The translations under genes were made by a program, and so were the position numbers. The notes beneath the pieces were generated by a model. That model was not told where the DNA came from and made no database searches. It saw nothing but the letters and a program-made list of their open reading frames with translations. From Planctomycetota bacterium (GTDB lineage: Bacteria; Planctomycetota; Brocadiia; Brocadiales; Brocadiaceae), in assembly GCA_023261445.1 (NCBI GenBank), contig JAHFOX010000015.1:1-34851 (forward strand): a DNA stretch of 34,851 nucleotides, given 5' to 3'. This document shows, one piece after another, positions 17,446 to 34,851 of the stretch. The stretch's first letter is position 1. Every line of letters begins with the position of its first letter.

Positions 17446-17474
17446 TTGACAAACCTATTCTGTAAATTTAATAT
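17446..17474 (+). promoter_or_regulatory. Sigma70-type promoter for the NXR accessory module
   Basis: TTGACA (17446-17451), 17 nt spacer, TAATAT (17469-17474). Confidence 0.55.
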
Positions 17475-17557
17475 ACTAAACTTTCTTTTTGGTGTTTAGG
17501 CGTATTAAAAAGGATTTATAAATCCACGACTAAAATTATTAGAATAAGACGGAGGTA

Positions 17558-18325
17558 ATGATGATAAAAAGTTTGCGTTACGTAACAATTGTTAGTGGTT
17601 TTGTGTTTGGTGTGATGGATAGTAGTGTTATGTTGTTGGACAATAATTATGCGGTGGCACAGGAAAAAGGCGCTACTTATAAAGAAATTGATGTTAAAGA
17701 TGGCGGGGCTATTGTAGGAACTGTTAAGTTTGATGGTGATGTTCCTGCTTCTAAGATGTTAAAGGTTGATAAAGACGAGCAAACTTGTGGTCATGAAAAT
17801 AAAGTATCAGAGGAATTGGTAGTCAATGGTGAATCAAAAGGCGTGAAGAATGTTGTTGTTTCTTTAGTTGACATTGCGGCTGGCAAAAAGATAGAGGCGG
17901 TAACAACTGCTTTAGACCAAAAGGAATGTCTGTTTATTCCCCATGTGCTCGCAATACCAGTAGGGTCTAGTGTTGATTTGCTTAATAGTGATAATGTAAT
18001 GCATAATCTTCATTCGTGGGCTATTAAAAATCCAGCTTTCAATGAAGGGGTATCTGGCGGCGGAAAGATGACTAAGAAATTTGACCTTGCGGAGGTTGTA
18101 AAGATAACTTGTGATGTGCATAAGTGGATGAGCTCTTTTGTTGTAGTTAAGGCGAATCCATATTTTGCTGTTACAGATGAGAATGGATGTTTTAAGATTG
18201 ATAATGTGCCTGCGGGTGCATATAAGATTGAGGCATGGCAGGAGAAGTTAGGGAAAAAGGCTGCCGAGGTGACAGTAAAGTCAAAAGAAGATGCTGTGGT
18301 AGATTTTGTTTTAACAAAGAAATAA
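17558..18325 (+). CDS. Periplasmic cupredoxin / methylamine-utilization-like protein with carboxypeptidase regulatory-like C-terminus
   Basis: Signal peptide; type 1 copper-like ligand set MHNLHSW...TCDVHKWM; TDENGCFKIDNVPAGAYKIEAW domain. Confidence 0.75.
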   Translation: MMIKSLRYVTIVSGFVFGVMDSSVMLLDNNYAVAQEKGATYKEIDVKDGGAIVGTVKFDGDVPASKMLKVDKDEQTCGHENKVSEELVVNGESKGVKNVVVSLVDIAAGKKIEAVTTALDQKECLFIPHVLAIPVGSSVDLLNSDNVMHNLHSWAIKNPAFNEGVSGGGKMTKKFDLAEVVKITCDVHKWMSSFVVVKANPYFAVTDENGCFKIDNVPAGAYKIEAWQEKLGKKAAEVTVKSKEDAVVDFVLTKK

Positions 18326-18383
18326 CCGTATCGTGAACTTTCATAGAACGTGTAACTTACTAGTTTGAAAAGGCCTATTGCTA

Positions 18384-20543
18384 ATGAATAAGAAGATATT
18401 GCTGCAGCTAACAAAAAGAAGTACATTTATTCTTATATTTTTGCTTTTCATTTCCTTTGTTTCGTCCATGTCGCTTTTCCAAAAGGCATTTGCTGCCGAA
18501 GAAGCGCCAGCACAAACATCAAAAGAAGGTGGAGTCGCTGCCCCCGGAGTGGAATTGCCTCAGTTTGATGCATCAGTTCTGGCAGCCGCACCGGCAGCGG
18601 TTGCGGGTCAGCCTGCAACAGGAACAGGTACTACAACAGCAGCCGTAGAGGAAGAAGAGGTTGGTCCTGTTCAATATAGAACATTCTTTGGAATTGATTC
18701 CAGGGTGGTAGTCTGGATTGTATCAGAACTGCATCTCATGTTTGCGGCTTTTGTGCTGGGTGTTCCAATTTTTGCCGTTATTGTAGAAATTGTGGGATTC
18801 AAGGGTGGCGACATTAAATACGATAAGATGGCAAAGGAATTTACCAAACTTTTATCCGCAGCATTTGCTACAACTGCGTCGTTAGGTGGTTTGCTTGGTT
18901 TCTGTTTATTCGGTTTGTATCCCGAGTTTATGGGTCACATGACGAATGTATTTGCGCCGACAATGTATGTTTACGCATTGATGTTCTTTGGCGAGGCATT
19001 CACATTGTACGGCTATTATTATTCGTGGGAAATTCTAAAAGGCACAGCTCTTAGGAAATGGTTCCACATTATGCTGGGTGTTATGCTTAACCTTTTTGGT
19101 ACAGGACTTATGTTTTTAACAAATTCATGGGCCACATATATGATGAGTCCTGCTGGAATTGTGCCAACCACTGGGAAAGTTCTGAGTTTATATCACGCCA
19201 TGTATAATCCACTGTGGATGCCTGTAAACATTCATCGTTTAATAGCCAATGTATGCTTTGGTGGTTTTGTGGTAGGCGCCTATGCAGCAGTGAAATTTCT
19301 GGGATCAAAATCAGAAGAGGAAAAGGCGCATTACGATTGGATGGGTTATGTCGGTAATTTTATAGGTGTTGGTGCTTTAATACCTTTGCCATTTGCAGGG
19401 TATTGGCTGGGAAGAGAAGTCTATAGCTCAAGCCCTGTTATGGGTAATATTATGATGGGCGGAGCATTTTCCTGGACATTTATTGTTCAAGCCATATTGA
19501 TTGGTATGCTTTTTATTGGAGCGAATTACTATTTGTGGCTGGGAATGGGTAGGATTAAAGGCTCAGAACGCTATACTAAATTTATTAAATATCTCATTTT
19601 TGTTATTTTCATGTGTTTTGCCGTATGGTTAACGCCCCATAATTTACCTCTTAGCGGTGAAGAGCGGGCTATGATTGGTGAACAATATCATCCGTTCTCT
19701 AAATATTTTGGGGTTATGGCAGCGAAAAACGCAGTAGTTAATTTAATTATTCTTGCCACCTTCTTTTCATTCCTGATTTATCGGAGAAGCAACAAAGGGG
19801 AATTGGCACCATTTTCTGAACAAGGTAGAGCTGGCAAGATTGGAATATTTTCCGCAGTGATCTTTTGCTTGTTAATGTTGGTCTCATATGCAGTTTCACT
19901 CAATTTTGTAGAGCTAGAAGCTAACATAAAGTCCTTTGTGAAACCTTTAATAGGCGCACTCTATATTCAATCGTTTTTTATATGTTTTGCAGCGTTTTTA
20001 ACCTTTAAAAACAAAGGCAAGTTAGCACAAAGTATGCTTTTTGCGGTTACTGCGTGTATTGCCGTGCTGTACTTCTGGTATTACGGTTTTCAAGTTATGC
20101 AAAAAGCGAATTTAGTATTACGATATTTATCTGTGACACAGGTTTCAATAGTAATGAGTTGTCTGATAATGAATGCTATTATAGATATCTTTATGTTCCG
20201 TAAAGCAAAGCTTGTAGGTGGTATTGTGTGGGGGAAGATGCCTGTAAGGTCGCAATACGCATTGATTCTGTTATGTGTGGTTATTGTTATTTTAATGGGA
20301 TTAATGGGCTTTATACGTTCTGGCTTGAGGATGGATTGGCATATTTACGGCGTCTTGCAGGATACATCGCAATGGGCATACACACCGACCCTGTCTTATA
20401 TGGGACGGATAGTTGGTTTAATTGTGGCGCTTTTCTTGGGTCTGGTTGCGTTCGTATTCTGGCTGGCTAATTTGGGTGACAAGAAAAAAAGTGAAAAAGC
20501 AGAAGAATACGAAGATGCAGTAGTTGGTTATGAGAAGCATTAA
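18384..20543 (+). CDS. Cytochrome bd quinol oxidase subunit I (CydA)-like multi-TM protein
   Basis: ELHLMFAAFVLGVPIFAVIVEIVG aligns by eye with E. coli CydA YHFLFVPLTLGMAFLLAIMETVYV; NIHRLIANVCFGGFVVGAY resembles the CydA H186 helix; many TM segments. Confidence 0.75.
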   Translation: MNKKILLQLTKRSTFILIFLLFISFVSSMSLFQKAFAAEEAPAQTSKEGGVAAPGVELPQFDASVLAAAPAAVAGQPATGTGTTTAAVEEEEVGPVQYRTFFGIDSRVVVWIVSELHLMFAAFVLGVPIFAVIVEIVGFKGGDIKYDKMAKEFTKLLSAAFATTASLGGLLGFCLFGLYPEFMGHMTNVFAPTMYVYALMFFGEAFTLYGYYYSWEILKGTALRKWFHIMLGVMLNLFGTGLMFLTNSWATYMMSPAGIVPTTGKVLSLYHAMYNPLWMPVNIHRLIANVCFGGFVVGAYAAVKFLGSKSEEEKAHYDWMGYVGNFIGVGALIPLPFAGYWLGREVYSSSPVMGNIMMGGAFSWTFIVQAILIGMLFIGANYYLWLGMGRIKGSERYTKFIKYLIFVIFMCFAVWLTPHNLPLSGEERAMIGEQYHPFSKYFGVMAAKNAVVNLIILATFFSFLIYRRSNKGELAPFSEQGRAGKIGIFSAVIFCLLMLVSYAVSLNFVELEANIKSFVKPLIGALYIQSFFICFAAFLTFKNKGKLAQSMLFAVTACIAVLYFWYYGFQVMQKANLVLRYLSVTQVSIVMSCLIMNAIIDIFMFRKAKLVGGIVWGKMPVRSQYALILLCVVIVILMGLMGFIRSGLRMDWHIYGVLQDTSQWAYTPTLSYMGRIVGLIVALFLGLVAFVFWLANLGDKKKSEKAEEYEDAVVGYEKH

Positions 20544-20620
20544 AAGAATTTTATAACAGGCTGTATTAATGTTTGGTGTAATAAAATCTCAAGGTTGTAA
20601 ATGAAGGTTTAGGAAAACTT

Positions 20621-21571
20621 ATGAATAAGAGCATGCTGAAAATTACGGCTTTTGCAATTGCCATTATTGGGTTCTATATCTACATCACAATATATGTAAC
20701 TGGCCTTTCTGGTACAGGAGGGGGGGAGTCTGTCGGTGGAGTAAGCCCAGAGGCGGGTGAAAAGATTTTCTGGGGAGATGGACAATGTAGTACTTGTCAC
20801 AAGATAGGTACCAGTGGCAGCGCAACAAGAGGACCAGATCAGGAAGGTTTGTCCAGTAGGGCTGAAGAGCGAGCAAAAGAGTTGGGTATGCCTTCAGGAT
20901 TGGATTATATGGTAGAATCTATTTTAGAACCCGAAAAGTATGTTGTGAAGGGGTATGATAAAATTATGCCCAAGGTGTTTGATCCCCCTATTATGTTGTC
21001 GCGTGAAAAGATACTTGCTGTCTTGGCATATCTTCAAACATTGGGCGGGGAGCCTGATATTGCTTCAATCATGAAGTATAAAGATAAAATACCAGAGGCA
21101 TCAAAGAAGAAGGTAAAACCATGGGTGTCTCCGATTGTGGTTGATGCAAAGGAAGGGGAGAAAATATTCTTCGACGAGACTCGACCTGTTACTTGTGGTA
21201 AATGTCATATTGTTAATGGAAAGGGTAAGAAGGTTGGTCCGGAGCTTACGGGTATCGGCGCTATTCAGACACCGGAATACTTCTTGGAGTCTATACTTAC
21301 GCCAAGCGCAAAGATTGTGAAAGGTTATGAAACGATGTATGTGATAACAACGGATGGCATACCTTATAACGGTCTGATTAAAAGTGAAACAGAAAATGAG
21401 CTTGTATTATTAAAAGAAGAAAGTGGTGAGATTGAAGAAGTAACTATTCCAAAGACTGAAATTCAAGAAATGAAGAAACAGGATGTTTCTATTATGCCTG
21501 GTAATATTAGTGAGTTGTTAAGTGTAAAGGATTTTTATGGGATTGTATCCTTTTTGCAGAGCTTAAAATAG
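20621..21571 (+). CDS. Membrane-anchored diheme c-type cytochrome (planctomycete heme-binding domain type)
   Basis: CSTCH and CGKCH; GPELTGIG...YFLESILTPSAKIVKGYETMYVITTDGIPYNGLI pattern; N-terminal TM. Confidence 0.82.
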   Translation: MNKSMLKITAFAIAIIGFYIYITIYVTGLSGTGGGESVGGVSPEAGEKIFWGDGQCSTCHKIGTSGSATRGPDQEGLSSRAEERAKELGMPSGLDYMVESILEPEKYVVKGYDKIMPKVFDPPIMLSREKILAVLAYLQTLGGEPDIASIMKYKDKIPEASKKKVKPWVSPIVVDAKEGEKIFFDETRPVTCGKCHIVNGKGKKVGPELTGIGAIQTPEYFLESILTPSAKIVKGYETMYVITTDGIPYNGLIKSETENELVLLKEESGEIEEVTIPKTEIQEMKKQDVSIMPGNISELLSVKDFYGIVSFLQSLK

Positions 21572-21621
21572 TTCAATGACTTGGTTGTATATGCGAATGA
21601 TTCAAAGTTAGGAGTCCATTA

Positions 21622-22392
21622 ATGGCTTATAAGCGCAGAAAATTTTTGTTGATATGGGTAATAACAGCAGCTATTTGCTTGTTTTTGTTTCTTAAATATG
21701 TCTCCCCAAAAGTTTTTCAGGTATTGATGGCAAAAGGTCATCCGATGCCAACGCCAAGCACCTTGATGATGTGGTACATGATTATGGGCGTTCTGGCTGG
21801 ATTGGTATATGCAACTACAAGCAACCAGAAGTTTGCAGATTTTCTAGGTTTTTTGTTGCCGGACAGCGGCCCAAAAATAAAGATTTTATTGCAAAAACTA
21901 TTGTTTGTGGGTTTTCCTGTTATAGTCGGATGGTTTGTATACACTTGGTCTATACCCGGTGCCGCCTCACCCGTTGAGTTAAGAATTCAACACCCTACAT
22001 TACCACAGGAATTTGAAAAGCTTGATAATCCGTTTAGACAGGCAGATGCCGAGACTCAACGCAAGTGTATAGAAGAAGGAAAGATTCTCTTTCAAACGTA
22101 TTGCAGGCCTTGTCACGGTTCAAAAGCAGATGGTAATGGACCTTTTGCAAATTCATTTCGCCTAAGACCTATTAATTTTCAAGACCCGGGAACGATTGCT
22201 ACTGTAGTAGATAATTATCTCTTTTGGCGAATTAAAGAAGGTGGCCCAGGCCTTCCAACGGAATCAACTCCGTGGGATTCTGCAATGCCCTCATGGAAAG
22301 ACGATTTAAAAGATGATGAAATCTGGAAAATTATCATGGGTGAATATGACACGGCTGGCGTTATGCCCAGACAAAGGGAAAAGCTTGAGTAA
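21622..22392 (+). CDS. Membrane-anchored monoheme cytochrome c
   Basis: TM segments, CRPCHGSKADGNGPFA, and distal AMPSW Met. Confidence 0.82.
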   Translation: MAYKRRKFLLIWVITAAICLFLFLKYVSPKVFQVLMAKGHPMPTPSTLMMWYMIMGVLAGLVYATTSNQKFADFLGFLLPDSGPKIKILLQKLLFVGFPVIVGWFVYTWSIPGAASPVELRIQHPTLPQEFEKLDNPFRQADAETQRKCIEEGKILFQTYCRPCHGSKADGNGPFANSFRLRPINFQDPGTIATVVDNYLFWRIKEGGPGLPTESTPWDSAMPSWKDDLKDDEIWKIIMGEYDTAGVMPRQREKLE

Positions 22393-22474
22393 TATATTGT
22401 GCTTGTGTAAGGGTGCAGTTCTTAATTGTTAATAGTAATTAATTTATAAACGGATAGAAGAACAGATAAATACT

Positions 22475-24067
22475 ATGATAAAAACGTTTAAAAAGGTTTT
22501 GGTAAGTTTAATTTTAGGCTTAGTAACAATATGTGTTTTTGGGGAATATAGGCAGGTATTTGCTCAGTCCTCTCATTTATTCAGGACGTATAAACATGAA
22601 GTACCTCAAAAATTGCCAGAAACACCGGAAGCCATTGCTGAAGGGAAAAAGACTTACGAAAAGAGGTGCTGGTATTGCCATGGGATTGAAGGTGGAGGTG
22701 ACGGCCCCGCATCAAAGACAATGTTTCCAAAACCGAGAAATTTTACAAGAAATGAGTATAAGGTTAGGTCCACAAATTTCGGCTCGGTTCCCACAGATGA
22801 AGATTTGTTCAGGATTATTACTAGTGGTATAGAAGGGACGGCAATGCCTTTTTGGAGCACTATAACTGAAACAGAACGCTGGCAGGTAATTTATTATATT
22901 AAAACCTTTAATGAACAATTTAAGAAGGAATCTGCGCCTAAAGTAGTATCTGTTGGAAGTGTTGCTTCCACCCCAGAAAGTTTGAAAAGGGGGCAGGAGT
23001 TATTTAAAGAGATGAAATGTTTTGAATGTCACGGTGAAGACGGGAGAGGAAACGGTCCTTTGACCGTGGCCTTACAAACTGAATGGAGCATGCCTTATCG
23101 TGCAAGAGATTTAACTAAGGCGTGGAATTTCAAGGGGGGTAATACAATAGAAGATATCTACAGGACGATTTCTACAGGATTTAATGAAACTCCTATGGGT
23201 TCTTATTTAGATAAACTTTCTGACGAAGATCGCTGGCATATTGCTCATTTTGTGAAAGATTTGTCCAATGATATGGCTTCCGACGTGGTTGTGAAAGTAA
23301 AGTTGTTTGAGGGCGACCAGTTACCATCAGAACCTTTAGATGAAAATTGGAATAAGGCTACTCCGGTAGAAATTCCTATAGCAGGTCAAATCATTGCTGC
23401 TCCCAGACACTGGATGCCTTCTGTAGATGCAATTATGATCAGGGCATTATATAACAAAGATGAAATTGCGTTTTTTGTGGAATGGGATGATTCAACTAAT
23501 AAACAGGAAGAAATATTTAGAGACGCAGTTGCCTTGCAGTTTCCCACAAAGATCCCGGAATCACTGAAAAAACCGTATTTTGCAATGGGAGATTCTAGTG
23601 GAGCAGTGAATCTTTGGAGTTGGAAAGCATACTGGCACGAAGGGTTTGGACAGATTGTGGAAGCACCAGAACAGGAACCAGGTACTGTTTCAGAACTAAA
23701 TGCAAAAGGTTTTAAGAGCGTTATAACACAGCCGACAGAAAGTCAGAATATTACAGGAAAGGGGATTTATCAGAACGGAAGATGGAAGGTTGTGTTTAAA
23801 AGAACCTTAAAGACTGAAGATGCAAAGAGAGATATCCAATTTGAAATTGGTAAACTTATTCCTATAGCGTTTGCGGTGTGGGATGGGTCAAATAGCGATG
23901 TTAGCGGTCAAAAGTCAGTTTCGTCTTGGTATTACATATCGCTTGAGAAGTCTGTACCCAAGACAGTTTTCGTTTATGTATTGATCGCCGTCGTTATGGG
24001 AGCAAGTGTAGAATTGTGGTTTGTTGCAAGGTTGCGCAGATTCCCGCCAAAATTTGAAGAAGAATAA
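22475..24067 (+). CDS. Diheme cytochrome c fused to NxrC/ethylbenzene-dehydrogenase-gamma-like heme b domain, C-terminal TM anchor
   Basis: CWYCH and CFECH; FRDAVALQFP, FAMGDSSGAVNLWSWKAYW (Met/Lys heme b ligands); TM VFVYVLIAVVMGASVELWFV. Confidence 0.82.
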   Translation: MIKTFKKVLVSLILGLVTICVFGEYRQVFAQSSHLFRTYKHEVPQKLPETPEAIAEGKKTYEKRCWYCHGIEGGGDGPASKTMFPKPRNFTRNEYKVRSTNFGSVPTDEDLFRIITSGIEGTAMPFWSTITETERWQVIYYIKTFNEQFKKESAPKVVSVGSVASTPESLKRGQELFKEMKCFECHGEDGRGNGPLTVALQTEWSMPYRARDLTKAWNFKGGNTIEDIYRTISTGFNETPMGSYLDKLSDEDRWHIAHFVKDLSNDMASDVVVKVKLFEGDQLPSEPLDENWNKATPVEIPIAGQIIAAPRHWMPSVDAIMIRALYNKDEIAFFVEWDDSTNKQEEIFRDAVALQFPTKIPESLKKPYFAMGDSSGAVNLWSWKAYWHEGFGQIVEAPEQEPGTVSELNAKGFKSVITQPTESQNITGKGIYQNGRWKVVFKRTLKTEDAKRDIQFEIGKLIPIAFAVWDGSNSDVSGQKSVSSWYYISLEKSVPKTVFVYVLIAVVMGASVELWFVARLRRFPPKFEEE

Positions 24068-24098
24068 ATAAGAACAACGTCTTGTTAAGGAGTTTTTA

Positions 24099-25592
24099 AT
24101 GAGGTTAAGGTCACTATCTAGCTTACGAAAAATATTGCTTATGATGGTAGCGATATGTTTACCAATAATGGCTTTCCTAGAAGTTTCTAATGGGCAGGAA
24201 AGGAAGATAGAAGCCCTTTATTTAGATTTAGATAAAAAATATCGTATGCCGGAGCAATGGCATGTTCTTCCTTTTGAACTTGAAGATCCTTATAAAAGGA
24301 TTAAAAATGGTCCACCGCTGACCAATGTTATTACTAAGGCTAACGTGGAGTGGATTTCCAGATGGATCGCTAATCCCAAGAAGGTTGTGCCGAATGCAAA
24401 GATGCCTAATCTTGGATTGGATTTTGAGGAAATTAAGGCAGTTATTGCCTTTTTAAGCAGTCTCAAAGAAAAAGAATTGTCGGCAATTACGTGGGATGCT
24501 TTTCTTTTGAAGAAAGAGGATGATCTCTCCGAAGATGAATATGACAAGATGGACAAGATATACAATAATGGGAAAGGTGTTTGGGGTCGTGCCCGTTGTA
24601 CAATCTGCCATCCTATAAAAGGAGTCGGCGGAAATGTTGGGGTAGGTCCCGACCTCGGTGAGATTACGACAAAGATAAATAGGAATTGGTTGTATGATTG
24701 GCTAGGCAACACTAAAAGCCATTTTTCTGATACAATGATGGCGCAATTTAGATTTAATGATAGTGATTTGCGGGGTATCGTCGAATTTGTTATGCGTGAT
24801 ACGCAGTTTATACCAGAAGAAAAAGATGAAGAAGAAGGTGAATCTAAGGAGGCAAAGCAGCCAGAACCAGAAGTTCAGATTTTAACAGAAAAAGAGTTTA
24901 ACAATATTAGAAAAGATACTGCCTTAATTGAAAAAGGAAAAGGTATTGTTGAAAAATCAAGGTGTTTTGTTTGCCACGATATAAAGGGTTTTTCGGAACT
25001 GATGCCTGTAGTGGAGAAAAAACGCGACGGCCTCGCAGGTTTTGAGAAGTTGTTATATGAAATACGTTGTTTGAGTTGCCATCGGATACAGAATAAAGGT
25101 GGAACTTATGCGCCGAATTTGACGATTGCTGGCAGTAAAATAAAAATGAGTTGGGAAAATTCATTTTTACAGGCACCAGATATCATTCGTCCTCTAAGTC
25201 AACAAATGCCCAAGTTTAATTTAACTGAAGAAGACGCTAAAGTAGCGACTGAATATATTGAAAAGAATCTTCATACTAAAGACTCTCTTCCAGATATTTT
25301 TGAAGGTAGTTCGCCCTCGCCTGATGTAATTGCGGCAGGAGAGAAGCTTTTTTACGAAAAGGGTTGTAATACTTGCCATGCGGAAGGGGCTAAAGGCGGC
25401 GGTGTAGTCGGTCCTAATTTGCAAACAGTAGGAGAGCGTTTACAACCTGCATATCTGCTCTATCATTTAAGAAATCCACAACAGGCAAACCCACAAGCAG
25501 TAGAACCAAATTTCGGTTTTTCAGATGAGGAATTAAAGTCACTGGTGGGTTTCTTGGCTGATCATGTAACGAAGAAAGAGGGAAATAAATAA
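24099..25592 (+). CDS. Tetraheme c-type cytochrome, multi-domain
   Basis: CTICH, CFVCH, CLSCH, CNTCH; signal peptide; cytochrome c domain patterns. Confidence 0.82.
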   Translation: MRLRSLSSLRKILLMMVAICLPIMAFLEVSNGQERKIEALYLDLDKKYRMPEQWHVLPFELEDPYKRIKNGPPLTNVITKANVEWISRWIANPKKVVPNAKMPNLGLDFEEIKAVIAFLSSLKEKELSAITWDAFLLKKEDDLSEDEYDKMDKIYNNGKGVWGRARCTICHPIKGVGGNVGVGPDLGEITTKINRNWLYDWLGNTKSHFSDTMMAQFRFNDSDLRGIVEFVMRDTQFIPEEKDEEEGESKEAKQPEPEVQILTEKEFNNIRKDTALIEKGKGIVEKSRCFVCHDIKGFSELMPVVEKKRDGLAGFEKLLYEIRCLSCHRIQNKGGTYAPNLTIAGSKIKMSWENSFLQAPDIIRPLSQQMPKFNLTEEDAKVATEYIEKNLHTKDSLPDIFEGSSPSPDVIAAGEKLFYEKGCNTCHAEGAKGGGVVGPNLQTVGERLQPAYLLYHLRNPQQANPQAVEPNFGFSDEELKSLVGFLADHVTKKEGNK

Positions 25593-26164
25593 TGGGATAT
25601 TTTTTGTCTGGCAAAAAAATTATACTCATAGGTTCGTGTGTCTTGCTGGGTGCTTTAGGTAGTTATGTCATGGCAGAGGACTTAAATTTTTCTCCGCGCG
25701 AACAAATTTTTTTACTGTCTCCCAAAAAGACGTTTGAATATTATTGTTCACCTTGTCATGGGTTCAAAGGTAAAGGAGATGGCACGTTCTTTACCATTGA
25801 TTTAAAACCAAAGCCCAGAAACTTCACAGACGTAGAATATATGAAAAAAAGAACGGACGACCAGCTTGTAAAGTCTATTACAGAAGGTTCTAAAGCGGTT
25901 GATAAATCAAATCTCTGCCCTCCGTGGGGAAAAACACTTACCGAAAAAAGAATCAAGGAGTTGGTGGTTTATATACGAAGTCTTTCGTTGCAGGAGGCAG
26001 AAAAGCCAGTGGTTGCTCAAAAAGGAGCAGTTGTCGCAGAAGAAAAATCCAGTGCGTTTAAATCATCTATGCGATGGCTCTTTCTTATTATAATTACTCT
26101 TGCATTGGCAGTAGGGGCTATTGGTGAGTGGAAGAAACTCAGAAAAGAATCAACACGGCAGTAA
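25592..26164 (+). CDS. Membrane-anchored monoheme cytochrome c
   Basis: CSPCHGFKGKGDGTF; C-terminal TM; overlaps the upstream stop codon. Confidence 0.8.
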   Translation: MGYFLSGKKIILIGSCVLLGALGSYVMAEDLNFSPREQIFLLSPKKTFEYYCSPCHGFKGKGDGTFFTIDLKPKPRNFTDVEYMKKRTDDQLVKSITEGSKAVDKSNLCPPWGKTLTEKRIKELVVYIRSLSLQEAEKPVVAQKGAVVAEEKSSAFKSSMRWLFLIIITLALAVGAIGEWKKLRKESTRQ

Positions 26165-26184
26165 AAAAATAAGTCAACTTCTCT

Positions 26185-27516
26185 ATGTACAAAAAAATAT
26201 TAATTGCAATTGATAATTCACGCCATTCTAATTACTGCATTGATTTAGGAATTAACATATCTAAGAAATTTAACTCTCATCTCGTGGGATGCCATGTCTA
26301 TGATGCGTCGTTACATCAGAAACGGTTTCGCGATATGGAAAAGGGTTTACCGCCGCAGTATCAAGACGAAGATGTGCTTAAACGCCAGCGTGACCTTCAT
26401 ACCTCTCTGATTAACCTTGGTCTCAAGTTGATTTCTGAATCCTACTTGGATGTGTTTACCAGAAAATGCCGTGAAGCATCAGTTTCACATGAATCTCGTT
26501 TGTTGGAAGGCAAGAACTATTCTGAAATTATAAAAGAAGTACATAATAATCATTACGACCTTGTGATTATGGGAGTGTTAGGGTTGGCGGCAGTAAATGA
26601 AAGTATAATTGGAAGTGTTTGTGAACGTGTTGTTAGACGTATTACGACAGACGTCCTTGTGGTAAAAAATAGGTGTTTAGATGGAAAGGTTGTGATTGCA
26701 GTAGATGGAAGTACGCCGTCTTCTGCTGGTGTAAAATCTGCCATTAATTTTGCAAAATCATTCGATTTAAAACTTACTGCGGTCTCTGTATTTGATCCGC
26801 ATTACCATCGTGTTGCCTTTGAAAGTATAGCCAAGGTGCTTTCTAAAGAAGCAGGGCAGATTTTCAGGTTTCGAGAGCAGGAGACATTGCATGAGGAAAT
26901 TATTGATAAAGGTTTAGCAAAGATATACCGGAATCATTTAGACCATGCAAATCTTGAGGCAAAGGACGCTGGTATCGGGATTGATACTGTTTTAATGGAT
27001 GGCAAGCCATATGATAAGATTCTAAAATATGTAAATAACGAAAAACCTTCATTGTTAATTTTGGGACGTACAGGAGTCCACAATACTAATGGATTAGATA
27101 TTGGCAGTACCACAGAAAACTTACTAAGGCTGGCTCCTTGCAATGTTTTATTAATAGGTGGAATAGAGAAAAAAGTTGATGTATCCGTCGCGCATTCTGG
27201 CTATGTTGAATTGGGAGGCGAAAAAGAACGTGTGATCAATGCATACAATCAATCGTGTAATGGAAAAGATTTTTTTAAGTTTCTTGAGAGCAATCAAGAA
27301 GTTAACAAAAAATCTATCGTAAAATCACACAATTCTGTAGTTTGGACAAAAGAAGCCCAAACACAAACAGCCCGTATTCCTTCGTTTATAAGAGATGTGG
27401 TAAGGATGAAAATTGAGGAGTATGCTCAGGAGAAAGGTTGTCAGGAGATAACTACCCAGATTGTTAATGAGGCACGGTCAAAACTTATAAACGATAGTTC
27501 ATTCCATAAAATTTGA
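26185..27516 (+). CDS. Tandem universal stress protein with C-terminal PCP_red-like domain
   Basis: Two Usp domains (KKILIAIDNSRHS...; GKVVIAVDGSTPSSAG...LLILGRTGVH) and WTKEAQTQTARIPSFIRDVVRMKIEEYAQEKGCQEITTQIVNEAR. Confidence 0.8.
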   Translation: MYKKILIAIDNSRHSNYCIDLGINISKKFNSHLVGCHVYDASLHQKRFRDMEKGLPPQYQDEDVLKRQRDLHTSLINLGLKLISESYLDVFTRKCREASVSHESRLLEGKNYSEIIKEVHNNHYDLVIMGVLGLAAVNESIIGSVCERVVRRITTDVLVVKNRCLDGKVVIAVDGSTPSSAGVKSAINFAKSFDLKLTAVSVFDPHYHRVAFESIAKVLSKEAGQIFRFREQETLHEEIIDKGLAKIYRNHLDHANLEAKDAGIGIDTVLMDGKPYDKILKYVNNEKPSLLILGRTGVHNTNGLDIGSTTENLLRLAPCNVLLIGGIEKKVDVSVAHSGYVELGGEKERVINAYNQSCNGKDFFKFLESNQEVNKKSIVKSHNSVVWTKEAQTQTARIPSFIRDVVRMKIEEYAQEKGCQEITTQIVNEARSKLINDSSFHKI

Positions 27517-27541
27517 CAAACAATGACTTGTATTGTAAAAT
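27513..27541 (+). promoter_or_regulatory. Sigma70-type promoter for nxrCB(chaperone)-HELMH-nxrA
   Basis: TTGACA (27513-27518) overlapping the USP stop codon, 17 nt spacer, TAAAAT (27536-27541). Confidence 0.55.
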
Positions 27542-27665
27542 TTACGGCAGATGTTATAGTAAATGTCGATAGTGAATTTTATTGTTCGAAGTTGCAGGAT
27601 TTGTAAAAACAAGTTAAATAATAACAGGTATTTAGATTAATAAGTGATTGTAATTGTTTTGGGTG

Positions 27666-27748
27666 TGGTTTCTTGTTTGCATTAAATATTTCAATAAAGA
27701 AATGCTAATTTGAAACCATGCAGAAAATATTTGGAACGAGTATTTTCT
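27666..27748 (+). promoter_or_regulatory. Two adjacent hairpins in the nxrC 5' leader
   Basis: tggtttc...gcatt/aatgc...gaaacca (27666-27718) and agaaaata-11 nt-tattttct (27722-27748). Confidence 0.4.
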
Positions 27749-27923
27749 CTAGTATAGTGGTAGTAAACAACTAAGGTGAGGGTTTCTTTAATTGTCGGTT
27801 GACTTGAAATTGGGAACGGTATTTGCCACTCATTTAGTATAAGATAAGTGTGCAATAACTTTATATATAACTGTTAATCGTAAATAGGTTTTGAGAGTAG
27901 GGATTTTTAAAAGGAGACGTATT

Positions 27924-28898
27924 ATGATTAAAGGGTTTTCGTTGTTTAAATTGTGTGGTGTAACCCTGCTTGGTTCTGTCTTTCTTAGTATGGCATTGTT
28001 CGCGGCCGAGGAAACAGCACCGGGTGTGAAAGGGATGAGTGAAGAGGAATTTACCCCTACTAAAGAGGTATTAACTGTTAAATACGTACAAATGGATAAA
28101 CCTTATCACATGGACGTAGAATCACTAAAAGGCGCTTTTAAGGATGCCGGTGCGGTTAAGGTTACTCTTCAGAAACAGGACAAGGCATTTCCTAATGGTG
28201 GGGGTTCTGTAAGCGGCGCAGAAGTGAAAGCGATACATGATGGGTTAACAGTTTATTTCCAAATTACGTGGAATGATCCAACAAAGAATGCAAGAGCAAT
28301 AGCAGTTCAGGAGTTCAGGGATGCCGTGGCTTTAATGTTTCCTTTAGGTTCTGTTGAGATAACTCCTGCTGAACATTTTAGCCCGAGGATGGGTGATAGG
28401 GAAAAACCTGTGAACTTATGGCATTGGAAAGCAGATTGGGAGGCTGACTTGCTTGTTAAGGGCGAGTTAGAAGATGTTGAAGCACAGTATCCCAATATGC
28501 ACGATGATTTTAATTTGAATCCTTATAGCGCATATTATCACAGGGAATTGATAACAAGCGTGGAAGTCTTATCGGGAGGAAGAGCTGCCAATAATTTGCT
28601 TTCTCAACCTGGCAGGGGTAGAACGGTTGAGGATTTAAATGCAGAAGGTTTTGGAACACTTACTACGCAAGAACATCAAGATGTAAACGGATGCAGCCAT
28701 TATGAGGAGGGTGCATGGACTGTAATTATATATCGTTCGCTGATTACAGACGATCCGCATGATGTGCAATTTGTTCCCGGTGGAAATTCATATTTCAATA
28801 TGGCTGTGTGGAATGGCGGAGAACAGGATAGGAATGGGCAAAAGAATATTTCTTCTCAATGGCATCCCATAACACTTGAAAGAGTTGCTTGGCAATAG
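27924..28898 (+). CDS. nxrC: Nitrite oxidoreductase gamma subunit (heme b, ethylbenzene dehydrogenase-like)
   Basis: Signal peptide; RMGDREKPVNLWHWKADW; RBS AAGGAG before ATG 27924; upstream of nxrB. Confidence 0.85.
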   Translation: MIKGFSLFKLCGVTLLGSVFLSMALFAAEETAPGVKGMSEEEFTPTKEVLTVKYVQMDKPYHMDVESLKGAFKDAGAVKVTLQKQDKAFPNGGGSVSGAEVKAIHDGLTVYFQITWNDPTKNARAIAVQEFRDAVALMFPLGSVEITPAEHFSPRMGDREKPVNLWHWKADWEADLLVKGELEDVEAQYPNMHDDFNLNPYSAYYHRELITSVEVLSGGRAANNLLSQPGRGRTVEDLNAEGFGTLTTQEHQDVNGCSHYEEGAWTVIIYRSLITDDPHDVQFVPGGNSYFNMAVWNGGEQDRNGQKNISSQWHPITLERVAWQ

Positions 28899-28937
28899 AT
28901 TACTCTGGAAAAAAGACATTAAAGGAGGGTTGAAAAA

Positions 28938-30149
28938 ATGACATTAGTACACAACTGGCATTTAGGGAGACGTATGGAATATCCCTATTTTGAATCCAGA
29001 CCAAAACGGCAATTTGCAGCCGTGTTTAACATCAACAGATGTATTGCCTGTCAGACATGCACCATGGCCTGTAAGAGTGCGTGGACTTATAACAAGGGTC
29101 AGGAACATATGTGGTGGAATAATGTGGAGACCAAACCGTATGGCGGTTATCCACAATCCTGGGATGTGAAAACGCTAAAGTTGATTGATAATGGTGAGAA
29201 TACTTGGTACACAGATGAAAAAGACGAAAAATTATCTCCCTATGGAGTATATGAGGGTGATACGATATTTGAGGCAGCCGCAAAGAAGAACCTCAATCAG
29301 TGGGCTGTTGGATATATTCCTGAAGATAAAGAATGGAGGTCTCCAAATTTTGGAGAGGATGTTGCGAAGAGTAATAAGCCAGATGAACATTCATCGCTGC
29401 CAGAACACAGTCGGTGGTTCTTCTATATTCAGAGACTTTGCAACCATTGTACTTATCCGGGTTGTTTAGCGGCCTGTCCCAGGAAGGCTATATATAAGAG
29501 AAAAGAAGATGGAATTGTTCTTATTGATCAGAAAAGGTGCAGAGGTTACAGAAAATGCGTAGAGCAGTGCCCATACAAGAAACCAATGTTTAGAGGCTTA
29601 ACAAGGGTAAGCGAAAAGTGTATTGCCTGTTATCCCAGGATTGAAGGACGAGATCCGATAACAAAAGGGCGTCCCATGGAAACCAGATGTATGGCGGCCT
29701 GTGTAGGCCAAATTCGTCTGCAAGGATTCTTGGATGATAATCCAAAAAACCCAGTCACATGGTTAATCAAGCATGATAAGCTGGCATTACCACTTTATCC
29801 ACAGTTTGGGACAGAGCCGAATATTTATTACATTCCGCCAAGATGGGCACCGAGGTCATATTTAAGACAAATGTTTGGTCCTGGTGTAGATGAAGCAATT
29901 GATAAATTTATGGTACCTTCTCGTGAAAGACTAGCGGTTATGTCATTGTTTAGGATGACACAATCCATTATATTTGAATATAAGATTGAAGAAGGTCCAA
30001 AGGTTTTTGAGACGATGATTCACGGCAAGAAGTTTGAGATGTATAATGATACAGTTATTGGATATGGTGAGGATGGACAAGAAATTGTGAGAACTACCAT
30101 AGAAGAACCTGTCCATATCAGAGATCCGAAGCATTACAATTCAATTTAG
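28938..30149 (+). CDS. nxrB: Nitrite oxidoreductase beta subunit (Fe-S)
   Basis: CIACQTCTMACKSAW, CNHCTYPGCLAACPRKAI, CRGYRKCVEQCPYKK, CIACYPRIEGRDP...CMAACVG; NarH/NxrB type. Confidence 0.92.
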   Translation: MTLVHNWHLGRRMEYPYFESRPKRQFAAVFNINRCIACQTCTMACKSAWTYNKGQEHMWWNNVETKPYGGYPQSWDVKTLKLIDNGENTWYTDEKDEKLSPYGVYEGDTIFEAAAKKNLNQWAVGYIPEDKEWRSPNFGEDVAKSNKPDEHSSLPEHSRWFFYIQRLCNHCTYPGCLAACPRKAIYKRKEDGIVLIDQKRCRGYRKCVEQCPYKKPMFRGLTRVSEKCIACYPRIEGRDPITKGRPMETRCMAACVGQIRLQGFLDDNPKNPVTWLIKHDKLALPLYPQFGTEPNIYYIPPRWAPRSYLRQMFGPGVDEAIDKFMVPSRERLAVMSLFRMTQSIIFEYKIEEGPKVFETMIHGKKFEMYNDTVIGYGEDGQEIVRTTIEEPVHIRDPKHYNSI

Positions 30150-30163
30150 AATTGAGGTTTATT

Positions 30164-30958
30164 ATGGGCGTTGATAGCACTAGTTTTTCAGATCAACAAG
30201 TTGCATCCGGCGTAGTGAATTTGCTTGCACGGAGCGCAATGTATCAGATTTTGTCCGCGTGCTTTCTTTACCCCGAAGAGGAAAACCTTTCGATATTGAA
30301 AAGTCCAGATTTTCAGGAACATGCGAAGGATTTGATGCTGTGTTATGAGGGTGTCGACGATGGTGCAGGGTTAAAAAGATGTTTGAATGAAGTACAGGAA
30401 TTGTACGGAAATGCAAACATCGAAACTTTACAAAGGATATATCAGTGTGTTGTCGGACACACCATGTCTAAAGAGTGTCCTTTATACGAAACCCAATATG
30501 GCGCAGCCCATGTGTATCAGCAAGTTCATGAGTTGGGTGATATTCAGGGTTTTTATAAGGCTTTTGGCTTGGATATCTCTGATGTAGAGAAGGAACGTTG
30601 CGATCATGTAAGTGTGGAGTTGGAATTTATACACTTTTTGTTGTACAAACAAGCATACGCTCTGGAAAACCACGGAGATGAAAAGGTGCAGATATGCGTG
30701 GATGCGCAAAAGAAGTTTTTGAAAGAGCATATAGGGAAATGGGTGCCTCTTTTTGCGGTACTTTTTAGCAGGAAGGCAGGAGAAGGTTTTTATTGTGCAT
30801 TATCTGCCCTGACAAAGGAGTTTTTAAGGCTGGAAATGAAGTTGATGGATATTAAAACTGAGATTTATAAGGAGTCCGATCTCAATCAGGAAGCGGTGGC
30901 TGGCGCCTCTGATGAATGTTTATCCTGTGCTTCTTCTGAAGATTTCAATGAGGAATAG
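30164..30958 (+). CDS. TorD/NarJ-family molybdoenzyme chaperone
   Basis: Helical protein with LLARSAMYQILSACFLYPEEENL and ECPLYETQYG; between nxrB and nxrA. Confidence 0.8.
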   Translation: MGVDSTSFSDQQVASGVVNLLARSAMYQILSACFLYPEEENLSILKSPDFQEHAKDLMLCYEGVDDGAGLKRCLNEVQELYGNANIETLQRIYQCVVGHTMSKECPLYETQYGAAHVYQQVHELGDIQGFYKAFGLDISDVEKERCDHVSVELEFIHFLLYKQAYALENHGDEKVQICVDAQKKFLKEHIGKWVPLFAVLFSRKAGEGFYCALSALTKEFLRLEMKLMDIKTEIYKESDLNQEAVAGASDECLSCASSEDFNEE

Positions 30959-30960
30959 AT

Positions 30961-31914
30961 ATGAGACTCGAATTTGACCCAAGTTTAATTGAAGAAGTAA
31001 TATTTGGAGAATTAAAGGACAGGGAAGAAAAAGGGGATTTTGCTCTTACTGCTGAATATCATTCATATACCGACTCTATATATGAGAATTTCCATTCGGA
31101 CGATAGGCCGTCTCAGTTTAGAAAAGTTGAATGGAATTTCTTTAAAAAACTCGAGTTACCGAAGGTAATAAAAGAGATTTTTGATGAATTTCCTGAGCTT
31201 GAAGGAAAGGCCGGTGGGGGCGTGATTGCAAAGGCAGTGAATCCTTTTGACGAAGGTTCTTATCTTACAAAAGGGATGAACCAGGAGGCTGGCCAAAAAA
31301 GGATTGTTGTCAAGTTGCTATCAGACCGCTTCCAGGAAATTTCCTATCTGAGAAAATTAGTCAGGCATGAATTGATGCATGCCTCTGACATGCTTAGCGA
31401 ATCATACGGCTATCGTGATGAACGACTCGGTGGTAATCCTATGGAAGAAAGTATCGTCAAGGAGCGATATTGTACTTTCTGGGATATTTTTGTCGATAGC
31501 CGATTAATCAGGAAAGGGAAAGAAACGCCGTTTGATAAAGATTGGAGATATAGAGAATTTGAAGCACTCTATAAAAAATTTCCTGACGATGTAAAAATTG
31601 CTATTTTTGATGTCCTCTGGCAAGATGAAAGTTTGACACACGATAAGATATTAGGTCTGGCAAAGGATGTGAATGAGGTGATAAAGATTTCTGAAGGCAT
31701 GCCTATTAGGCATGCCGCCAAAAAGAAAAAGTCAATTTTGCCGGGTGCCCAATGTCCTCTCTGTCAATTTCGTACTTATCGTTGGGCGGAAAATATTGAA
31801 CAAGATGCTTACCTTGTGGATGCAATCAAAAAGGATTTTACCGGCTGGGAACCGGAAGATGGCGTATGTGTTCAATGTACTGAGGCTTATAAGATAAGAA
31901 GTATTGTTTGTTAA
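30961..31914 (+). CDS. Uncharacterised putative zinc metalloprotein (HELMH) with C-terminal zinc-ribbon-like CPLC/CVQC pair
   Basis: YLRKLVRHELMHASDMLSESYG; CPLCQFRTYRW...EDGVCVQCTEAYK; inside the nxr operon. Confidence 0.65.
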   Translation: MRLEFDPSLIEEVIFGELKDREEKGDFALTAEYHSYTDSIYENFHSDDRPSQFRKVEWNFFKKLELPKVIKEIFDEFPELEGKAGGGVIAKAVNPFDEGSYLTKGMNQEAGQKRIVVKLLSDRFQEISYLRKLVRHELMHASDMLSESYGYRDERLGGNPMEESIVKERYCTFWDIFVDSRLIRKGKETPFDKDWRYREFEALYKKFPDDVKIAIFDVLWQDESLTHDKILGLAKDVNEVIKISEGMPIRHAAKKKKSILPGAQCPLCQFRTYRWAENIEQDAYLVDAIKKDFTGWEPEDGVCVQCTEAYKIRSIVC

Positions 31915-31972
31915 TATATATGGTTAAAACTTTTTATATAAATTGTTTTAAATTGAGAAAGGAGTAGGAAAT

Positions 31973-34851
31973 ATGAAACTTACCAGGAGAACTTTCCTAC
32001 AAATAGCAGGTGCGACAGGAGCTACCTTTACTATTGCTAATAAGGCAATGGCATTTCGGTTACTGAAGCCTGCTGTGGAAGTGGGAAATCCGCTGGATGC
32101 CTATCCTGATCGCGCATGGGAAAGTGTATATCGTGATCAGTATAGGTATGACCGAACATTTACCTTTACTTGTTCACCGAATGACACCCATGCCTGCAGG
32201 GTAAGGGCATTTGTAAGAAATGAAGTGGTTATGAGGGTTGAACAGAATTACGACCATCAGAATTACTCAGACCTGTATGGAAACAAGGCCACGAGAAACT
32301 GGAACCCCAGGATGTGCTTAAAAGGGTACACGTTCCATCGCAGGGTTTATGGACCTTACAGGTTAAGATATCCGCTTATTCGAAAAGGGTGGAAACAGTG
32401 GGCAGATGACGGGTTCCCGGAATTGACACCGGAAAATAAATCCAAATACATGTTTGATGCCAGAGGGCAAGATGAATTATTAAAAGCTTCATGGGATGAT
32501 GCGTGGACATACGCTGCAAAAGGGATTTTGCATATTACTAAGAAGTATAGCGGCGAAGAGGGTGCTAAAAAACTTATAGAACAGGGATATCCAAAAGAGA
32601 TGGTTGATCCCATGAAGGGGGCTGGCACACGTACCTTCAAGGGTCGTGGTGGTATGGGGCTCCTAGGCGTAATCGGTAAATATGGTATGTACCGATTTAA
32701 CAATATGCTTTCCCTTGTTGATAGTCATAATAGAGGCGTAGGGCCGGATAAAGCATTGGGCGGAAGGAACTGGTCGAATTACACATGGCACGGCGATCAG
32801 GCTCCAGGCCATCCATTTTCTCATGGATTGCAAACTTCGGATGTAGATATGAATGATATTCGTTTCTCGAAGTTGGTAATACAAACCGGGAAAAATCTTA
32901 TCGAAAATAAGATGCCTGAGGCGCACTGGCTTACCCAGGTTATGGAGAGGGGTGGAAAACTCGTTGTTATTACTCCTGAATACAGTCCATCTGCACAAAA
33001 AGCAGATTATTGGATTCCAATTAGGTGCAATACAGATACAGCGCTATTTCTGGGCTTAACCAAGATATTGATGGATGAGAAACTGTATGATGCAGATTAT
33101 GTGAAAAAGTTTACCGATTTCCCACTACTCGTTAGAACTGATACTTTAAAGAGATTAAAACCAAACGATATCTTCCCAGATTACAAGTTAGAAGATATCT
33201 CCCACGGTCCAAGCTATAAGATTCAAGGATTGCACGATGACCAGAGAGAGATTATAGGAGATTTTGTTGTATGGGATGCAAAGACGAATAGTCCTAAAGC
33301 CATTACAAGGGACGATGTCGGTGATAAGCTGGCGGCTAAAGGCATTGATCCTGCCCTTGATGGTACATTCAAGGTAAAAACCGTGGATGGCAAAGAGATG
33401 GAGGTCATGTCTGTCTTTGAAATGTATAAGATACACCTTAAAGATTATGACATTGACAGCGTAGTCGAAATGACTAATTCTCCAAAAGAGCTAATCGTAA
33501 GGTTAGCACACGATATTGCTACTATAAAACCAGTGGCAATACACTATGGTGAGGGTATTAATCACTGGTTCCATGCAACGCTAATGAACAGGTCTACGTA
33601 TTTGCCGTTGATGTTGACGGGAAATGTAGGCTACAATGGTTCTGGTTCTCATACATGGGCGGGGAACTACAAGGCTGGTAATTTCCAATCAGCGAAATGG
33701 TGCGGTCCTGGGTTTTATGGATGGGTGGCAGAGGATGTATTCAATCCAAATCTCGATCCCAATGCTCCGGCATTGGATTTAAAGGTAAAAGGTCGTGCTT
33801 ACGATGAAGAGGTTGCATATTGGAACCATAATGACAGGCCACTCATTGTAAATACCCCTAAGTACGGACGTAAATGCTTCACGGGTAAGACGCACATGCC
33901 AACACCTACCAAGGTTCTATGGTTTACCAACGTGAACCTGATCAATAATGCAAAGCATGTGTATCAGATGCTTAAGAATGTGAATCCAAACATTGAGCAG
34001 ATTATGTCCACTGATATTGAAATGACGGGTTCCATCGAGTATGCAGACTTTGCATTCCCGGCAAATTCCTGGATGGAGTTTGAGACCCACGAGATTACCA
34101 GTTCGTGTTCGAACCCATTTTTCCAGATATGGAAGGGTGGTATAAGGCCAGTCAATGATTCTAAGGATGATGTGATGATCCTTGCGGGTATGGCGGCCAA
34201 ACTGGGTGAATTACTCAGGGATATGAGATTCAGGGATTTCTGGAAGTTTGCATTGGAGGGAAGACCCGAAGTATATATCCAGAGGTTGTTAGACGGCAGT
34301 ACGACTTCGAAGGGATATACTTTTGATGATATAATAAATGGTAAATACGGTGAACCTGGCGTAGCCCTGTTAAATTACAGGACTTATCCAAGACAGCCAT
34401 TCTGGGAACAGGTACACGAAAGCATTCCATTCTATACCCCACATGGAAGGCTGCAGGCTTACAATGACGAATCTGAAATCATTGAGTACGGTGAGAATTT
34501 CATTGTGCATCGTGAAGGGCCGGAGGCAACGCCTTACCTGCCAAATGTCATTGTAAGTACCAATCCTTATATACGTCCGGATGATTACGGGATTCCAGAA
34601 AGTGCAGAGCACTGGGATGAAAGAACAATTAGGAATATCAAGAAGTCATGGTCTGATACAAAGCAGACAAAGAACTTCTTGTGGGAGAAGGGTTATAAGT
34701 TCTATTGTGTAACCCCAAAATCAAGACATACGGTGCACTCACAGTGGGCAGTAACGGACTGGAACTTTATCTGGAATAACAACTTTGGCGATCCATACAG
34801 AATGGACAAGAGGATGCCCGGTGTAGGGGAACATCAGATTAATATAAACCC
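31973..34851 (+). CDS. nxrA: Nitrite oxidoreductase alpha (molybdopterin) subunit, partial at window end
   Basis: Tat signal MKLTRRTFLQIAGATGATFT; CSPNDTHAC...MCLKG Fe-S motif; SNYTWHGDQAPGHPFSHG; type II DMSO reductase family; open to window end. Confidence 0.92.
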   Translation, partial: MKLTRRTFLQIAGATGATFTIANKAMAFRLLKPAVEVGNPLDAYPDRAWESVYRDQYRYDRTFTFTCSPNDTHACRVRAFVRNEVVMRVEQNYDHQNYSDLYGNKATRNWNPRMCLKGYTFHRRVYGPYRLRYPLIRKGWKQWADDGFPELTPENKSKYMFDARGQDELLKASWDDAWTYAAKGILHITKKYSGEEGAKKLIEQGYPKEMVDPMKGAGTRTFKGRGGMGLLGVIGKYGMYRFNNMLSLVDSHNRGVGPDKALGGRNWSNYTWHGDQAPGHPFSHGLQTSDVDMNDIRFSKLVIQTGKNLIENKMPEAHWLTQVMERGGKLVVITPEYSPSAQKADYWIPIRCNTDTALFLGLTKILMDEKLYDADYVKKFTDFPLLVRTDTLKRLKPNDIFPDYKLEDISHGPSYKIQGLHDDQREIIGDFVVWDAKTNSPKAITRDDVGDKLAAKGIDPALDGTFKVKTVDGKEMEVMSVFEMYKIHLKDYDIDSVVEMTNSPKELIVRLAHDIATIKPVAIHYGEGINHWFHATLMNRSTYLPLMLTGNVGYNGSGSHTWAGNYKAGNFQSAKWCGPGFYGWVAEDVFNPNLDPNAPALDLKVKGRAYDEEVAYWNHNDRPLIVNTPKYGRKCFTGKTHMPTPTKVLWFTNVNLINNAKHVYQMLKNVNPNIEQIMSTDIEMTGSIEYADFAFPANSWMEFETHEITSSCSNPFFQIWKGGIRPVNDSKDDVMILAGMAAKLGELLRDMRFRDFWKFALEGRPEVYIQRLLDGSTTSKGYTFDDIINGKYGEPGVALLNYRTYPRQPFWEQVHESIPFYTPHGRLQAYNDESEIIEYGENFIVHREGPEATPYLPNVIVSTNPYIRPDDYGIPESAEHWDERTIRNIKKSWSDTKQTKNFLWEKGYKFYCVTPKSRHTVHSQWAVTDWNFIWNNNFGDPYRMDKRMPGVGEHQININ

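Follow-up and report, generated by a model that had tools for sequence, protein, structure and literature searches.

A Brocadiaceae nxr gene cluster and the candidate electron-transfer module upstream of it

Gene content of the nxr cluster

The DNA analyzed here, a 34,851-bp stretch from a Planctomycetota bacterium of the family Brocadiaceae (contig JAHFOX010000015.1 of assembly GCA_023261445.1; hereafter the window), makes up the entire contig C64 of an anammox-type genome of 2.08 Mb and 91% completeness. Translation and a domain scan of positions 17558–34851 give 13 genes, all on the plus strand, between a promoter at 17446 and the contig end. They encode nitrite oxidoreductase (NXR) and, upstream of it, a set of redox and membrane proteins that we refer to as the module. 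It is close to certain that this is the known anammox nxr cluster of the kustd1699–1713 type, tabulated with the same products, haem counts and order (PMC6423088, Table 1). Both the cluster and the proposal that its module transfers NXR electrons are already published (PMC8387239, PMC3578206, PMC6606698).

The module opens with a cupredoxin gene (17558..18325), which carries the type-1 copper motif HNLH ... CDVHKWM and corresponds to kustd1713 in the published table. It is followed by genes for a CydA-like, or bd-like, membrane protein (18378..20543; PF01654 over the N-terminal half; counterpart kustd1712), a di-haem cytochrome c that matches 7ZS0 over its full length (20621..21571; E=1e-168; kustd1711) and a mono-haem cytochrome c (21622..22392; kustd1710). 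Beyond the next gene (22475..24067; kustd1709) lie those for a tetra-haem cytochrome c with four CXXCH motifs (24099..25592; kustd1708), a mono-haem cytochrome c with a hydrophobic C terminus (25592..26164; kustd1707) and a protein combining USP and PCP_red domains (26185..27516; PF00582, PF08369; kustd1706). The CXXCH counts over the five cytochrome genes are exactly 2, 1, 2, 4 and 1; in a preliminary description of the window, these counts and the gene list, order and strand were right in every item. The third of these genes, at 22475..24067, is not a plain cytochrome gene, however, as its product joins a di-haem part to an NxrC-like EB_dh domain (E=2e-30) and a C-terminal hydrophobic helix.

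After the module and a 374-bp gap comes nxrC (27891..28898; likelier start ATG 27924), which encodes the soluble haem-b gamma subunit, an EB_dh protein with Met and Lys ligands. The Fe-S subunit gene nxrB (28938..30149; Fer4 families) is 86–98% identical among Brocadiaceae-type loci, and genes for a NarJ/TorD-like chaperone (30152..30958; PF02613; kustd1702) and a protein with an HELMH zincin-like motif and CxxC...CxxC (30961..31914; kustd1701) precede nxrA (31973..34851). The last is cut by the contig end, so that 959 of about 1150 residues fall in the window. The module had also been called complete, a term that is too strong with nxrA truncated. A second cupredoxin gene (kustd1699) follows nxrA in almost every Brocadiaceae-type relative whose contig extends far enough; here it would lie beyond the window.

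By sequence, the identity of the enzyme as NXR is certain, given a match to the NXR-A chain of 7B04 at E=0 and conservation of the key active-site residues: NxrA C67, N70, D71 and D275 (Kuenenia numbering) are found in 33/33 sequences, the window's included. NxrC keeps both haem-b ligands, Met155 and Lys305 of KsNxrC. The Tat signal of NxrA has its RRTFL motif, with a weak TAT_signal match below the cut-off. Second nxrA copies, 93% identical to that of the window and mostly without nearby nxrB or nxrC, occur in Brocadiaceae (L057–L060, L067, L076), and one genome (G031, locus L061) has an extra nxrC-nxrB-narJ-nxrA set without a module. Elsewhere in the window genome, a molybdopterin enzyme gene with one in-frame TGA (L001, G000:C6:8855-10126) possibly encodes a selenocysteine formate dehydrogenase.

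In the HELMH protein, E137, H140, D143 and H227 are invariant among 17–19 homologues, and its AlphaFold 2 (AF2) model is confident (pLDDT 87). It matches no Pfam family, and no PDB fold match falls below E 0.04; it may act in maturation. The window holds no Rfam RNA genes and no tRNAs.

The promoter is of the sigma-70 type (TTGACA-17-TAATAT, 17446..17474, plus strand, 10/12). Within the window alone, promoter-like matches are about as frequent as expected by chance (60 against 53). However, a TTGACA-type match (10–11/12) lies 78–125 bases 5′ of the cupredoxin gene in 16/17 Brocadiaceae-type loci, and the same scan of control upstream regions found matches for nxrB in 0/19, cydA in 2/21 and c2 in 1/21. 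Because the element is conserved at the same distance in relatives and is rare before control genes, we accept the predicted promoter at 17446 as real, as judged by conservation. Scalindua loci have no such match before the cupredoxin gene. A second candidate before nxrC (27513, 11/12) was rejected, as its position is not kept in relatives (any match in 7/20).

The module in anammox families and beyond

Synteny was compared across 58 genomes of the class, in families labeled f1 to f5: f1 is Brocadiaceae (named members Kuenenia, Brocadia and Jettenia), f3 Scalindua and f4 Anammoxibacter. In 18 genomes of f1, the CydA-like gene and nxrA share a contig at a distance of about 13–15 kb, and gene order is identical in every unfragmented Brocadiaceae-type locus read. 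This synteny rejects a chance neighborhood of module and NXR. The whole Kuenenia cluster is down-regulated together under NO feeding (PMC6423088), and the products of kustd1705–1712 are found to 84–99.5% in the membrane fraction, both cupredoxins being mostly soluble (PMC11897245). In Brocadiaceae, there is good support for a functional link between NXR and the module.

The expectation that the module is syntenic with nxr in other anammox genomes thus holds for Brocadiaceae, but not more widely. In Scalindua the module is intact, yet it is off the nxr contig in 8/8 genomes that have both, as published for S. profunda (PMC3655542). In Anammoxibacter the two are on separate contigs and module units are duplicated. 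Family f2 has NXR (NxrA 55–58% identical) and HZS, with no CydA-like gene and no module; it fits Bathyanammoxibiaceae, a name we infer from the published traits of that family, which are the lack of a kustc0457/458-type HAO and a separate NxrA branch (PMC9723696). An octa-haem protein of about 940–980 amino acids is encoded 5′ of the module in Scalinduaceae and Anammoxibacter, and not in Brocadiaceae (L044, L046, L050, L072, L074).

A scan of the CydA-like alignment against 84,980 species genomes found at least 571 relatives, and the order cupredoxin, CydA-like, di-haem, mono-haem, di-haem plus EB_dh recurs in many phyla. NxrA at 60% or more is present in 4/43 module-bearing non-anammox genomes. 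An AioA/IdrA-type molybdenum (Mo) subunit adjoins the module in 22/57 loci, mostly with a Rieske protein and two MauG-type di-haem proteins, and such an enzyme is encoded in 29/43 of these genomes. The module-linked enzymes, here called IdrA-like, have an AioA-like Mo subunit, an idrB-type Rieske protein and adjacent idrP1/P2, and the AioA arsenite ligands R201 and E207 are replaced by T and S. A haem-copper oxidase-family protein occurs in 39/43 of the genomes and a RuBisCO-family protein in 11/43. With an IdrA-like enzyme as its frequent neighbor outside anammox bacteria, the module is not specific to NXR, but is a separate, widely reused unit.

The idrP1-idrP2-idrB-idrA-like genes, often with a HEAT-repeat gene, lie directly 5′ of the module homologue (L117–L148; for example, L124:1224-9138) in Alpha-, Beta- and Gammaproteobacteria and SAR324, which makes these organisms candidate unrecognized lithotrophs. 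The pairing was not found in the literature searched; if functional, it would point to an unrecognized lithotroph group.

Loss of synteny in Scalinduaceae and Anammoxibacter and reuse of the module without NXR would both be expected if module and NXR were mere neighbors, with no functional coupling. This is very improbable, given the invariant Brocadiaceae order, the published co-regulation and the fact that the module protein keeps NxrC-like haem-b ligands in precisely those two families in which NxrC and the module occur together.

The CydA-like and gamma-like proteins and their link to HAOr

The AF2 model of the CydA-like protein (pLDDT 84) has cytochrome bd subunits as its sole significant PDB fold matches. 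Residues equivalent to E. coli H19, E107, H186, R448 and W451 are kept in about 120 relatives (haem ligand positions: H19 in 119/121, H186 in 121/121), while all aligned sequences have Tyr in place of E99 and the b595 ligand E445 is not conserved; the position of M393 is not alignable with confidence. In two Scalindua paralogous modules, the CydA-like protein and a kustd1711-like di-haem cytochrome form one polypeptide (L049:9283-11817, L075:8293-10848), suggesting a direct partnership. The structure of kustd1711 has been solved and its haems are at +350 mV (PMC11791136).

Retention of H19, E107 and H186 would also suit an OR-N-type (CydAA′) enzyme that reduces O2 or NO with electrons from the module cytochromes for detoxification, and OR-N enzymes have been proposed as cytochrome c-oxidizing O2 reductases of nitrogen-cycle bacteria (PMC10839748, PMC12342949). 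We consider this improbable: beyond the changes at E99 and E445, Brocadiaceae clusters have one CydA-like gene and no A/A′ pair, anammox bacteria are anaerobes, and the 39/43 module-bearing genomes noted above have a separate haem-copper oxidase-family protein.

The protein encoded at 22475–24067 matches 6H5L_B with its N-terminal half (E=9e-55) and the NXR-C chain 7B04_C with its C-terminal half (E=3e-24). It has all the features of alt_NxrC, namely two CXXCH motifs, an EB_dh domain and a C-terminal hydrophobic helix. Its EB_dh half aligns with KsNxrC, and every main-module copy from Brocadiaceae and Scalinduaceae has counterparts of Met155 and Lys305. The pair is also present in 5/5 nxr-operon versions, which lack the terminal hydrophobic helix, and in an EB_dh tree NxrC groups with these fused gamma subunits (support 99/88). 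In module copies elsewhere the ligands are replaced (R/M, L/R, W/M, M/H and others), bar one ambiguous Scalindua paralogue. Met/Lys is thus characteristic of those families that possess a separate NxrC as well as the module, although shared ancestry of Brocadiaceae and Scalinduaceae could also have caused the pattern. A possible reading of the protein is as a membrane-anchored alternative gamma subunit of NXR, or else as a docking point.

Its N-terminal match, 6H5L_B, we take to be kustc0457 itself, which sequence matches support. In the window genome, a stand-alone relative of this di-haem protein (6H5L_B at E=9e-133) is encoded next to an octa-haem gene and a cupredoxin gene, and the pair fits the kustc0457/kustc0458 type. 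That type is the HAOr pair, a candidate nitrite reductase with a di-haem redox partner (PMC12485887). In the corresponding HAOr-like locus of the window genome (L175; G000:C28:8688-9464 and flanks), the cupredoxin paralogue is without CxxHxxM.

The stand-alone partner occurs in f1, f3 and f5, whereas f2 (four genomes with a match) and f4 (one genome) have only a form fused to an NXR gamma subunit, so that the two forms are mutually exclusive across families. A di-haem tree sets stand-alone and nxr-operon forms apart from module forms (99/96). We do not claim sisterhood of the first two, since this unrooted tree of three groups has no outgroup and cannot be rooted.

These data bear on a route in which the main acceptor is soluble: NXR electrons would pass via the di-haem partner to the HAOr-type nitrite reductase (kustc0457/0458), with the membrane module as a side branch. 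Such a route has been proposed (PMC8387239, PMC6423088). In its favor, the di-haem half of the module protein and the nxr-operon gamma subunits of f2, f4, Nitrospinota and Poribacteria belong to the kustc0457 family, stand-alone and fused forms exclude each other, and stand-alone partners are closer to the f2 fused form (49–51% identity) than to nearly all module copies (36–46%). Furthermore, the HAOr locus of f1 and f5 holds a paralogue of the module cupredoxin, of module type in the tree (87/97). Against it, the di-haem sisterhood hangs on the root, and HAOr alone leaves the co-regulation of the module and the membrane-fraction data unexplained. The Brocadiaceae HAOr-linked cupredoxins, moreover, have lost CxxHxxM, which the f5 copy (L182) keeps; this weakens the idea of a shared copper carrier. 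HAOr as the main acceptor is a real but minority possibility. Considered jointly, the ligand pattern and the fused and stand-alone occurrences are evidence, though no proof, for electron transfer from NXR to the membrane complex as well as to HAOr.

Proposed electron route and comparison with described clusters

The fate of nitrite-oxidation electrons in anammox bacteria has been stated to be an open question (PMC8387239). We somewhat favor a route from NXR through the upstream module to a membrane complex, with or without a branch to HAOr. Gene identity and order, the promoter, the conserved ligands and the bd fold are shown by the sequences and models; for direction of flow, docking and final acceptor we infer the following. 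NxrA oxidizes nitrite and passes electrons via the NxrB Fe-S clusters to the Met/Lys-ligated haem b of NxrC, a path shown for Kuenenia in the literature and whose ligands are conserved in the window. The module would take over these high-potential electrons, with the gamma-like protein as its central component; this protein repeats the NxrC haem-b site, adds two c haems and may dock NXR. Electrons would then reach the CydA-like membrane complex, either from this protein or via the cupredoxin and the +350 mV di-haem cytochrome. The complex has neither the canonical quinol site nor the canonical b595 ligand and may reduce quinone for reverse electron flow. In parallel, some electrons probably branch off to the HAOr nitrite reductase.

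This route is favored by the match to kustd1713–1700, the Brocadiaceae gene order, the published co-regulation and membrane data, the Met/Lys pair, the CydA–di-haem fusion and the bd fold. Several points weigh against it. The module is unlinked to nxr in Scalinduaceae and Anammoxibacter and present in many genomes that lack NXR, and its absence from f2 means that NXR does not need it in all anammox bacteria. The quinol residues K252/E257 are not conserved in the aligned CydA-like family, in agreement with the published account of the bd-like protein (PMC3578206). Finally, purified NXR of Kuenenia is located in anammoxosome tubules, and a nitrite reductase that forms NO is regarded as the destination of its electrons (PMC8387239). 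The earlier proposal that the module serves NXR thus stands for Brocadiaceae on synteny and the published data, while the membrane acceptor that it named is the moderately probable one and soluble HAOr a less probable competitor. The ligand pattern and the exclusive occurrence of fused and stand-alone forms turn the choice between membrane and HAOr routes into binding and redox tests on named proteins.

More tentatively, and with odds we judge to be low, the module may be a portable unit that handles electrons for lithotrophic Mo enzymes of high potential (NXR in anammox bacteria and nitrite oxidizers, and in Proteobacteria an IdrA-like enzyme, possibly for iodide oxidation), and the anammox gamma subunit may have split into NxrC and the HAOr redox partner. 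If so, this split into haem-b and di-haem parts would let NXR electrons pass directly to nitrite reduction.

Among described systems, the HAOr pair kustc0457/kustc0458 shares with the window a di-haem part homologous to that of the 22475–24067 protein and, in the same Brocadiaceae locus, a related cupredoxin gene. Unlike that protein, kustc0457 stands alone without a haem-b domain and has an octa-haem catalytic partner. The idrABP1P2 iodate reductase loci (PMC8692401) resemble those of Proteobacteria and SAR324 in which a module homologue adjoins idrP1-P2-B-A-like genes; compared with the NXR cluster, these have another Mo enzyme, of the AioA/IdrA type, and a di-haem plus EB_dh module protein without the haem-b ligands.

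The gene set drawn for Kuenenia, Nitrospina and Nitrospira (PMC3578206, Fig. 6), in which the bd-like protein lacks a Q-loop and was given a possible role in reverse electron transport, and the alt_NxrC/bd-like cluster proposed as an NXR anchor point (PMC6606698) share with the window the cupredoxin, the bd-like protein, mono- and di-haem cytochromes, alt_NxrC and the TorD-like chaperone. The window adds the tetra-haem, mono-haem and USP-PCP_red genes and, unlike the Nitrospina/Nitrospira set, Brocadiaceae have a single bd-like gene.

The closest counterpart is kustd1713–kustd1700 of Kuenenia stuttgartiensis, with the same genes, order and haem counts (13/14 genes). The difference is NXR-T (kustd1705), which in Kuenenia lies between the USP gene and nxrC; it is absent from the window cluster, and a relative sits elsewhere in the window genome (G000:C101). 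NXR-T within the nxr cluster has been published for Kuenenia only, and we find a homologue, 53% identical to the Kuenenia protein, between the USP gene and nxrC in a second genus (G034, L042:11393-11944).

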